A stretch of 42,956 nt of DNA, taken from Cytophagales bacterium (GTDB lineage: Bacteria; Bacteroidota; Bacteroidia; Cytophagales; Microscillaceae). Numbering within the stretch: the stretch's first letter is position 1; every line of letters begins with the position of its first letter. A program made the translations under genes and the position numbers. This document shows positions 25,139-41,212 of the stretch, piece by piece. The notes below the pieces were generated by a model that saw nothing but the letters and a program-made list of their open reading frames with translations, did not search any database and had not been told where the DNA came from. Where the stretch lies: the NCBI GenBank assembly GCA_013297825.1, contig JAAFIN010000011.1:1-42956 (forward strand), in the 5' to 3' direction.

Positions 25139-25182
25139 AAATGTGTCATTCTGAAAGAATCTGGCTGTTTTGGTATTTTACA

Positions 25183-32629: not shown

Positions 32630-32740
32630 TGTTCAATAAATACTAATTTGTCGGTTGTATAAACCTATAAGGTTTTTAAAATCTTATAGGTTTAAACGAA
32701 AATAAATGATAATATAAGACATTTTAACATTTATTGAACA
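32630..32740. repeat. Nested inverted-repeat element, CCTATAAGG type
   Basis: Outer arms TGTTCAATAAAT (32630-32641) and ATTTATTGAACA (32729-32740) are perfect complements. Inside lies a second palindrome with AACCTATAAG and CTTATAGGTT arms. The whole 111 bp can fold into a nested hairpin, typical of a non-autonomous mobile or REP-type element. Confidence 0.65.
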
Positions 32741-32754
32741 ATAGTTTTGTTTAG

Positions 32755-32917
32755 CAAGTAAAAATATGGTTATCTGATAAATTTTTATGAAAACATAAGA
32801 TATAAACCCCTATTTACTGATTTAATTATAGTAAATATAAAATAAGGTTTTGTATCTTATATTCTAAAAGCTGTCAGATAAATAAAAATATGATAATTCA
32901 TAAAATATTTTTACTTG
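32755..32917. repeat. Long fold-back element A with TTATCTGA ends
   Basis: Outer arms CAAGTAAAAATAT (32755-32767) and ATATTTTTACTTG (32905-32917) are perfect complements. Further inside are GGTTATCTGATAA and, inverted, CTGTCAGATAAAT, then ATAAGATA/TATCTTAT, AAACC/GGTTT and TATTTAC/GTAAATA in order. The 163-bp unit thus forms one long imperfect hairpin. Confidence 0.65.
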
Positions 32918-35935: not shown

Positions 35936-36460
35936 ATGCTCAAAAATACCCTTAAATCGCTTTTCTTTTTGTTTTCTGTTATCATTATCGCAAGTTGTGG
36001 CAATGGTGTGGCTACTAATATGGAACTCAACAAAAAATTGGAAGTAGAACACCAAAAATTTTTGAAAGAACACCAAATCATTCTACAAGAACACGATGTA
36101 ATGTTCAAAGAATATAACCAATGGGAAAAAGAATATCAAGCCAAAAAATCTGGTGTGAAAGACCAAAATGTAAATGAAATCAAAATGCACGACGAAGCTG
36201 TAGTTGCACAAAATAAAATTCTTAAAGAACATGATGACCTTATAAAAGGACACGATAAACTCCTTCAAGACCAAACTTCTATCCTAAAAAATCACGTAGA
36301 AGGCAAACTTATTGACAAAGATTTTGAAAAAGCTCACATTGCTTTAGCTGAAAATCATAAAAAATTGGTGGAAAAACACAATGACATCAAAGCTAAACAC
36401 GAGGCTTTTGAAGACAAACACAAAACTGTGCTTGCTACTATCGTAGTTGAAGTGAAATAA
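35936..36460 (+). CDS. Lipoprotein with Glu-His heptad repeats
   Basis: The 174-residue product has a lipoprotein signal (FLFSVIIIASC, Cys22) and is otherwise almost purely helical. From residue 37 an Glu-His pair recurs every seven residues (EHQKFLK, EHQIILQ, EHDVMFK, EYNQWEK). After an AKKSG break the pattern returns with MHDEAVV, EHDDLIK, GHDKLLQ, NHVEG, NHKKLVE, KHNDIKA, KHEAFED. The period fits a coiled coil with a stripe of histidines on one face. The protein should sit at the membrane in the periplasm or on the surface; metal binding by the His stripe is an inference. A heptamer DNA repeat starts at the base after the stop. Confidence 0.75.
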   Translation: MLKNTLKSLFFLFSVIIIASCGNGVATNMELNKKLEVEHQKFLKEHQIILQEHDVMFKEYNQWEKEYQAKKSGVKDQNVNEIKMHDEAVVAQNKILKEHDDLIKGHDKLLQDQTSILKNHVEGKLIDKDFEKAHIALAENHKKLVEKHNDIKAKHEAFEDKHKTVLATIVVEVK

Positions 36461-36509
36461 AGTTTAAAGTTCAAGGTTTAAAGTTTAAAGTTTAAAATTC
36501 AAGGTTTAA
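36461..36509. repeat. Heptamer tandem repeat, AGTTTAA class
   Basis: Seven units in perfect phase (AGTTTAA, AGTTCAA, GGTTTAA, AGTTTAA, AGTTTAA, AATTCAA, GGTTTAA) begin at the base after the stop codon of the lipoprotein gene. Confidence 0.92.
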
Positions 36510-36643
36510 AAAATCCTATAAATTATATTTAATCTTAAAACTTTACTCCAAAATCTTGAATTATCCAAAAAATTTTAAAATTCTGATTTTATTTGGTTGT
36601 TTCATTTATACATTCAACATTTACCATTGGATTTGGCTGTTTC

Positions 36644-36671
36644 ATTCCTAATTCCTAATTTCTAATTCATA
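36644..36671. repeat. Heptamer tandem repeat, ATTCCTA class
   Basis: Four in-phase units (ATTCCTA twice, ATTTCTA, ATTCATA) lie directly upstream of the GTG start of the sensor phosphatase. Confidence 0.85.
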
Positions 36672-36676
36672 ATTAA

Positions 36677-40000: not shown

Positions 40001-40086
40001 AAATATTGTCTAAATTATCGTACTGATAAAGTTTTTTTTTAATGTGTTTCAAATAATTGAAATTCTAAAAAATATAAGTTTTACCG

Positions 40087-40237
40087 TTCTCTGACAATTT
40101 TTGTGGAAGAATAATGTAACACATACTTTTAGTGTGTGAAAACATCGTTAAATGAGGCTTTGACAAAGACACACACTAAAAGTGTGTGCTACAAAATATC
40201 GTTTTTTTCTTTTTCCACAAAAATTGTCAGATAACCA
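40087..40237. repeat. Fold-back element B with CTGACAATTTTTGTGGAA ends
   Basis: Arms CTGACAATTTTTGTGGAA (40091-40108) and its exact complement (40213-40230) enclose a second inverted repeat of 23 bp with two mismatches (40116-40138 and 40170-40192, each containing ACACACTAAAAGTGTGT-like sequence). The right end reads outward as GGTTATCTGACAA, matching elements A and C. It fills the gap between the sensor phosphatase and the CoA-transferase gene. Confidence 0.75.
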
Positions 40238-40278
40238 GTTTTACAGTACAACATTTTTTTGTGGAATAAATTAAAAAT

Positions 40279-40983: not shown

Positions 40984-40996
40984 TTTTTTAATAAAG

Positions 40997-41017
40997 AATT
41001 AGAAATTAAGAATTAGG
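40997..41017. repeat. Heptamer tandem repeat, AATTAGG class
   Basis: Three in-phase units (AATTAGA, AATTAAG, AATTAGG) lie 14 bp upstream of the CoA-transferase ATG. Confidence 0.75.
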
Positions 41018-41212
41018 AATTTTGCAAAAATATTAAAAATTTGGGTTCTTTTTATTTTTAAAAAATAAAAATTTGAAGGTTTAATTTAAACTAATTATTT
41101 AGTCATAATAAATTTGTGTTTTATGCGAAATGTTTGTAAATTAGCAATTATTTAGATATAAAAATTAAAAAGTTTATATAAAACTACATTATTATTTTCT
41201 TTTATTAAAATT

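Follow-up and report, generated by a model that had tools for sequence, protein, structure and literature searches.

Two kinds of repeat that have already been described come close to the elements considered here. One is the 187-bp ISL3-type MITE of Microcystis aeruginosa, a non-autonomous element whose inverted terminal repeats match those of an ISL3 transposase and start GGCTCTTCG; it is flanked by 8-nt direct repeats, forms a stem-loop and lies mainly in intergenic DNA, as far as the accessible part of PMC11448079 goes. The other is the REP arrangement of A. variabilis, T. roseum and H. neapolitanus, where REP dimers or REPs regularly sit inside a second palindrome, an arrangement for which the accessible part of PMC3733652 gives no mechanism.

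The window, by which we mean the whole analysed stretch of 42,956 nucleotides, is contig C13 of a draft genome (G000 below; 5.06 Mb, 362 contigs, 95% complete). Its fold-back elements belong to a large family of ISL3-type MITEs, and the middles of these MITEs are mostly palindromic repeats that are also free in the genome, several of them the repeats beside Y1 transposase genes (RAYT or IS200-type). The members of the family in the window, with the evidence for each feature in brackets, are as follows.

32768..32883, + strand: element A, a degenerate ISL3-type MITE of 116 bp with a decayed right end (sequence, left end, fold)
32760..32767, + strand: left target-site duplication (TSD) of A, AAAAATAT (sequence; 8 bp is the TSD length of the family)
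32884..32891, + strand: right TSD of A, AAAAATAT (sequence)
32755..32767, + strand: left arm of the host hairpin, overlapping the left TSD of A (empty-site fold)
32905..32917, + strand: right arm of the host hairpin (empty-site fold)
40085..40236, + strand: element B, an ISL3-type MITE of 152 bp from the REPIN-carrying subfamily (ends, family matches, fold)
40077..40084, + strand: left TSD of B, AGTTTTAC (sequence, end pairing)
40237..40244, + strand: right TSD of B, AGTTTTAC (sequence, end pairing)
40116..40138, + strand: REP 1 in B, GTAACACATACTTTTAGTGTGTG (REP search of the genome)
40170..40192, - strand: REP 2 in B, inverted, GTAGCACACACTTTTAGTGTGTG (same sequence as the REPs clustered beside the RAYT gene on contig C325)
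41693..41763, + strand: element C, a short ISL3-type MITE of 71 bp (sequence, end pairing)

The preliminary description of this DNA held that three elements of the window share inverted ends, and this is borne out. The family end is GGTTNTCTGACAATTTTTGTGGAA. Its 20-mer TTATCTGACAATTTTTGTGG (up to 3 mismatches) has three places in the window where 0.03 are expected, which are the right end of C and the two ends of B. With the shorter GGTTATCTGAYAA, at up to 2 mismatches, there are six places against 2.05 expected: one is unrelated, and the rest are the left end of A and both ends of B and of C. The differing lengths and middles were also correctly noted, since A has 116 bp, B has 152 bp with a REP pair and C has 71 bp without a palindrome. 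The genome search for the shared end which the same description recommended gives 90 + 82 = 172 places for the 24-mer, and none for a reversed-pattern control. From 145 overlapping loci of G000, which include the window and hold fewer than all 172 ends, we obtained 74 distinct inverted end pairs of 59-356 bp, together with 50 unpaired ends (up to 5 mismatches, no partner within 450 bp). Hence the ends are neither absent from the rest of the genome nor devoid of inverted partners, either of which would have spoken against the family. Its members are short and non-coding (an open frame of at least 120 codons spans 0 of the 71 elements tested), bear terminal inverted repeats and are present in many copies, as MITEs are.

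Element B has a strong fold (z -10.27), and similar copies lie at no fewer than 39 places elsewhere in the genome, with 83-97% identity over most of the length among the 40 of 263 candidates that were scored. Element C has neither palindromic cargo nor a clear TSD. Two further repeats were seen in this part of the window. One is a tandem 14-bp repeat of TAAAGTTTAAAGTTCAAGGTTTAAA units at 36458-36510, between two genes. The other is a 33-bp inverted repeat, ATTCCTAATTCCTAATTTCTAATTCATAATTAA, with 91% complementary arms at 36644-36676 and 40988-41020, one just upstream of a 1107-aa ORF and the other upstream of a CoA-transferase-like gene.

Element A is the weakest of the three window members. 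Compared with the 24-mer, 5 positions differ in its left end and more than 6 in its right end, and this degeneracy keeps it out of the 74 counted pairs. We place it in the family because the first 13 bases of its left end are exact, because 32 bases match the left end of C at 88%, and because it is flanked by an exact 8-bp repeat. Its interior holds no recognised repeat. The preliminary description treated A as one long hairpin of 163 bp. Folding of the 163 bases does give a single hairpin (z -4.95), so this part stands; the extent of the element does not, as A proper is 32768-32883, and these 116 bp also fold back when taken alone (z -3.03). Once A and one TSD copy are removed, the outer 13-base arms of the resulting inferred empty site pair with each other. 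The 163-bp hairpin is therefore a MITE inserted in an older host hairpin, whose outer 13-base arms lie outside the element. A preference of these MITEs for insertion into hairpins is suggestive only: among 43 elements with at least 7 of 8 TSD bases, empty sites made by joining the flanks fold with z below -2 in 21% versus 8% (p = 0.06).

The target duplications that the preliminary description proposed to look for do exist, and they have a fixed length of 8 bp. An exact 8-bp TSD flanks 16 of the 74 G000 pairs, compared with a mean of 0.43 and a maximum of 3 in 500 shuffled re-pairings; when one mismatch is allowed, the count is 27 of 74 (shuffled mean 2.45, maximum 7). In the same 74 pairs direct repeats of 4, 5, 9 and 10 bp show no excess over re-pairings, and those of 6 and 7 bp a small one (4 and 5 pairs, with a shuffled maximum of 5 each). 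Other genomes give the same picture, with 14 of 44 elements having an exact 8-bp TSD (shuffled mean 0.31, maximum 3). No exact repeat of 4 bp or more is present in 48 of the 74 G000 pairs, which may be old or recombined copies. The insertion sites are A+T-rich. The nearest genomes returned by the search for relatives belong to other genera, and empty sites were inferred by joining flanks.

Which transposase acts on these ends? ISL3 was proposed because of the duplication length and of the end sequence, which we take to resemble the ends of streptococcal ISL3 elements. The clearest case is a plasmid of Bernardetia sp. Wsw4-3y2 (NZ_CP147018.1), which carries an uninterrupted 1266-bp ISL3 element (locus L341, 1775-3040) with the same ends as the MITEs. 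Its two 22-base ends agree at 21 positions, the first 21 being identical, it is flanked by the exact 8-bp TSD AATAAGAT, and its gene is annotated as 'ISL3 family transposase' (WP_338812543.1). A PF01610 search found ISL3 genes with the end just outside in G002 (exact end) and G014 (2 mismatches); a protein search, in which at most the best 5 candidates per genome were scored, added a gene with an exact end in G141 and a decayed 5' part in G007, and ISL3 remnants lie between two such ends in G091 and G150. The protein family assignment of these transposases is ISL3. Thus the MITEs have their ends in common with an autonomous element, an ISL3 transposase lies between matching terminal inverted repeats (TIRs) with an 8-bp TSD, and the transposase for these ends is ISL3. 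Some scattered observations may be recorded here. A DNA search of the plasmid collection with whole elements gave one record, which matches over 33 bases at the end of the Bernardetia ISL3 element. A distant ISL3 copy on a Gloeothece plasmid has a 21-of-22 inverted pair just outside its gene, with no TSD at that alignment, and a simple scan of a likewise distant Enterococcus plasmid copy revealed no strong inverted pair. Seven G127 loci (L346, L363, L372-L374, L376, L377) have the family end no further than about 100 bp from where a contig stops, the pattern that assembly collapse of a multi-copy full-length element would give.

The suggestion that a transposase encoded elsewhere, with the same terminal repeats, mobilises the MITEs is accordingly supported by the shared TIRs, the 8-bp TSDs and the matching ISL3 element, and the transposase gene flanked by the shared end that was to be looked for is the Bernardetia one, with both ends and a TSD. 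As far as found, 'elsewhere' means other genomes. The PF01610 profile has 0 matches in the G000 draft, and the protein search at E 1e-30 found no ISL3 gene there among the best 5 of 13 candidates, so that an autonomous copy in the same genome is missing from this draft. It follows from the lack of a PF01610 match that the helper in G000 is lost, unassembled or too diverged, and the MITEs may not be moving there at present. In our opinion this is no proof of true absence, and an autonomous copy in the same genome is not what defines a MITE.

The interiors of the G000 elements, for which the preliminary description offered no explanation, are of several types. Type 1, present in 31 of 74 elements, consists of two inverted copies of GTA(G/A)CACACACTTTTAGTGTG at up to 4 mismatches; at that cut-off 9 more elements have a single copy. 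The other 34 were sorted by eye: about 14-15 carry the type 2 palindrome AAACCTATAAGG..CTTATAGGTTT, 9 the type 3 palindrome TGTCATTCTGAAAGAATC, 3 a type 4 element of about 118 bp, CCCCACGTTTCACGTGGGG, and about 7, mostly short, none of the four. In G002 the element at L325, flanked by an exact TSD, carries type 2 cargo as well. All four types occur as free copies in G000, and the window itself has two such places.

32658..32696, no strand assigned: free-standing type 2 palindrome, AAACCTATAAGG..CTTATAGGTTT, the interior of other family MITEs (window match to MITE copies)
25144..25161, + strand: free-standing arm of the type 3 palindrome, TGTCATTCTGAAAGAATC, which is also MITE cargo (window match)

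The type 1 repeat is built as REPs and REPINs are, with a GTAG head followed by an imperfect palindrome and with inverted pairs. It has 67 + 66 places in G000, and among 95 distinct copies in the loci examined an end-like match is found on both sides of 56, on one side of 12 and on neither side of 27. Type 1 MITE copies are uniform (median identity to the consensus 0.96, lowest 0.81), and the spacing of their REPs is 56 in 25 of 31, unlike the five free inverted pairs, which are spaced 35-38 nt; the spacing is 39, 54 and 125 in the three pairs where a single side shows an end-like match. From this uniformity and the differing spacing we read type 1 as probably one founding capture that then spread with ISL3 ends.

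Four Y1_Tnp matches exist in G000. The Y1 gene on contig C325 is a REP-associated tyrosine transposase, or RAYT (NF047646, 83.3 bits, cut-off 80), and adjoins a cluster of type 1 REPs (L297, 940-1324); the Y1 protein on C93 is IS200-like (53.8 bits, just below the IS200 model cut-off of 55), and its gene lies between type 4 palindromes, where no ISL3 end has fewer than 7 mismatches. The main cargo type of G002 is found on either side of an IS200-family gene on C233 of that genome (84.8 bits against a cut-off of 55). Of the 72 G000 cores long enough for the test, the C325 RAYT locus is matched by 43 at E 1e-3 and by 38 at 1e-6, and the palindromes to either side of the C93 gene by 3; in G002, 10 of 20 cores match the palindromes that flank the IS200 gene of that genome. 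Compared with length-matched flanks, matches to the own Y1 loci at E 1e-6 are given by 41/72 cores versus 3/143 flanks in G000 and by 10/20 versus 3/40 in G002; at E 1e-3 the figures are 47/72 versus 22/143 and 10/20 versus 6/40. At the Y1 loci of the other genomes tested, matches of G000 and G002 cargo are of 16 bases or less. The cargo of G006 matches no Y1 locus of the other genomes tested, that of G006, G007 and G011 matches none of its own, and the Y1 search in G013 returned nothing. A cognate RAYT gene beside the same repeat is thus seen at C325 and was not found for G006, G007 and G011 cargo.

The end (up to 1 mismatch) is present in 18 of 390 genomes of the order, G000 included, and is abundant in five of them, at 251, 141, 77, 41 and 34 places. 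A GTAG-headed hairpin lies in 43 of 110 cores (118 elements minus 8 under 84 bp; the other-genome sample is 11 loci of 8 genomes) versus 4 of 219 flanks, and its stems differ between G000, G002, G006, G090 and G108, although of the two hits in G002 the one at L325 may be due to chance. G000 contributes 36 of the 43, and copies within one genome share descent, so that 43 of 110 overstates the number of captures. Inserts in MITE interiors are seen at two loci. At L338 of G002 a palindromic insert some 95 bp long (TTAGACTTCTTGCGAAAGT ... ACTTTCGCAAGAAGTCTA) splits a main-type MITE whose uninterrupted sister is L337; the insert is also free at two further loci, L070 and L080. At L246 of G000 the type 4 cargo is itself interrupted. 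Dispersed palindromes thus do enter MITE interiors. The insert at L246 (contig C42, 603-958) is a second, unrelated fold-back with ends CAGGGACGATTGTTTC / GAAACAATCGCCTCTGCC and a palindrome of its own, CGCTTGGAGGGTTTAAAACCCTCCAAGCG; it may represent a further MITE family with palindromic cargo. At L339 of G002 (contig C293) an ISL3 MITE abuts half of a TTAGACTTCTTG..AAAGT palindrome, where nesting may go in both directions.

We consider it highly probable that these are ISL3-derived MITEs with exchangeable palindromic cargo, often repeats that flank Y1 genes, which was captured and then amplified by the ISL3 transposase. An ISL3 transposase of the DDE type would bind the inverted ends of about 24 bp in trans and carry the element, in double-stranded form, to A+T-rich sites between genes, making the 8-bp duplication; the structure is seen, and the movement would be its cause. 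The middle is exchangeable cargo, being in most G000 members seen a palindromic repeat also free in that genome and in several cases a repeat flanking a Y1 (HUH) gene. Such a gene is either of the IS200 type, with palindromes at its sides, or a RAYT whose REPs have the GTAG head. The likely history is that palindromes were first inserted into MITEs (one inserted state is caught at L338), presumably by Y1 enzymes, and that the composite would then have been amplified by the ISL3 transposase. A bolder extension is that DDE-type MITEs have been loaded time and again by Y1 (HUH) transposases, each with its own palindromes, as independent captures in several genera of the order. Each system would then help to spread the other through a dual-mode element: RAYT or TnpA would act on the inner palindrome as a single strand, and the ISL3 transposase on the outer ends as double-stranded DNA. 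We advance this extension tentatively, and would sooner bet against it than on it.

One may object that, in ISL3-derived MITEs, any palindrome would be kept that makes a long fold-back (a stable hairpin, a terminator, an RNA stabiliser) of help to the element or to neighbouring genes, Y1 enzymes merely making palindromes common. Indeed the cores fold far better than flanks (mean -0.301 kcal/mol/nt, n=67, versus -0.135, n=133), an inverted repeat of 12 bp or longer is present in 84 of 110 cores versus 43 of 219 flanks, no long open frame spans any of the 71 elements, and the cargo of types 2 and 3 and of G141 and G011 is palindromic without a known Y1 partner. However, a general taste for hairpins does not explain why G000 and G002 cargo matches specific repeats beside the Y1 genes of its own genome, with such short matches at those of other genomes, or why GTAG heads recur in five genomes, and we regard this explanation as unlikely. 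Still less probable, in our opinion, is the opposite direction of events, in which REP/REPIN families escaped from MITE interiors and were later adopted by RAYTs. The type 1 copies inside MITEs are numerous, 56 of 95 REP copies lying between two TIR-like ends; but no ISL3 end is near the five free inverted pairs or the REPs next to the RAYT gene, and the spacing of the free pairs against the 56 usual in MITEs looks like one founding capture. Moreover, the borders of type 4 look alike (by eye) in free and MITE-borne copies, and the L338 palindrome is inside a MITE and absent from its sister copy.

Finally, the ends might belong to another transposase family with GG ends or duplications of about 8 bp, such as IS1595 or IS982. 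IS1595 was the first guess, from the TSD length and the GG ends, but PF12762 has no match in G000, the one genome searched with it. For IS982 there is a gene fragment about 90 bp inside a single ISL3-type end in G011 (contig C365, L074, 1403-1816); yet only one of 27 IS982 loci scanned, this one in G011, has a close TIR match, the others having none or one with 6 mismatches. The Bernardetia ISL3 element, with the TIR at both ends and its 8-bp TSD, largely refutes such an assignment, and we give it hardly any credence.

How REPs and REPINs spread, and where the interiors of MITEs come from, are both poorly understood. In the ISL3-derived MITEs the outer ends and the inner cargo come from two unrelated transposition chemistries, and candidate cognate Y1 genes are at hand, so that both questions become testable by sequence comparison and two-plasmid assays.

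It remains to compare the family with known systems. A literature search, with subscription papers mostly outside its coverage, returned no paper describing REPINs as cargo of ISL3 MITEs; for nesting, only PMC3733652, in its accessible part, comes near. In a 2024 review of prokaryotic MITEs (PMC10969869) a word search of the accessible text meets RAYT, ISL3 and nested nowhere, and REP only among the references. The Bernardetia insertion sequence has the same TIR and an 8-bp TSD, and differs by the transposase gene in its 1266 bp, which the MITEs lack. The Microcystis MITE is alike in its non-autonomy, ISL3-matching ITRs, 8-nt repeats, stem-loop and mainly intergenic sites; it has another TIR sequence and another phylum as host, and the accessible part of PMC11448079 mentions no REP cargo. 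With REPs and REPINs and their RAYTs, as the accessible parts of PMC3733652 and PMC3116915 present them, our type 1 repeats share the GTAG-headed palindromes, the inverted pairs and the clustering beside a RAYT gene (NF047646); unlike them, they also lie inside ISL3 ends and appear to have spread with these. The outer palindrome of A. variabilis, T. roseum and H. neapolitanus is not called a MITE in the accessible part of PMC3733652, which gives no transposase or TSD for it, whereas the present family has an identified transposase and TSD, with cargo that varies from genome to genome. Taken singly, ISL3 MITEs are known and so are REPs inside palindromes; their explicit nesting appears to be new.
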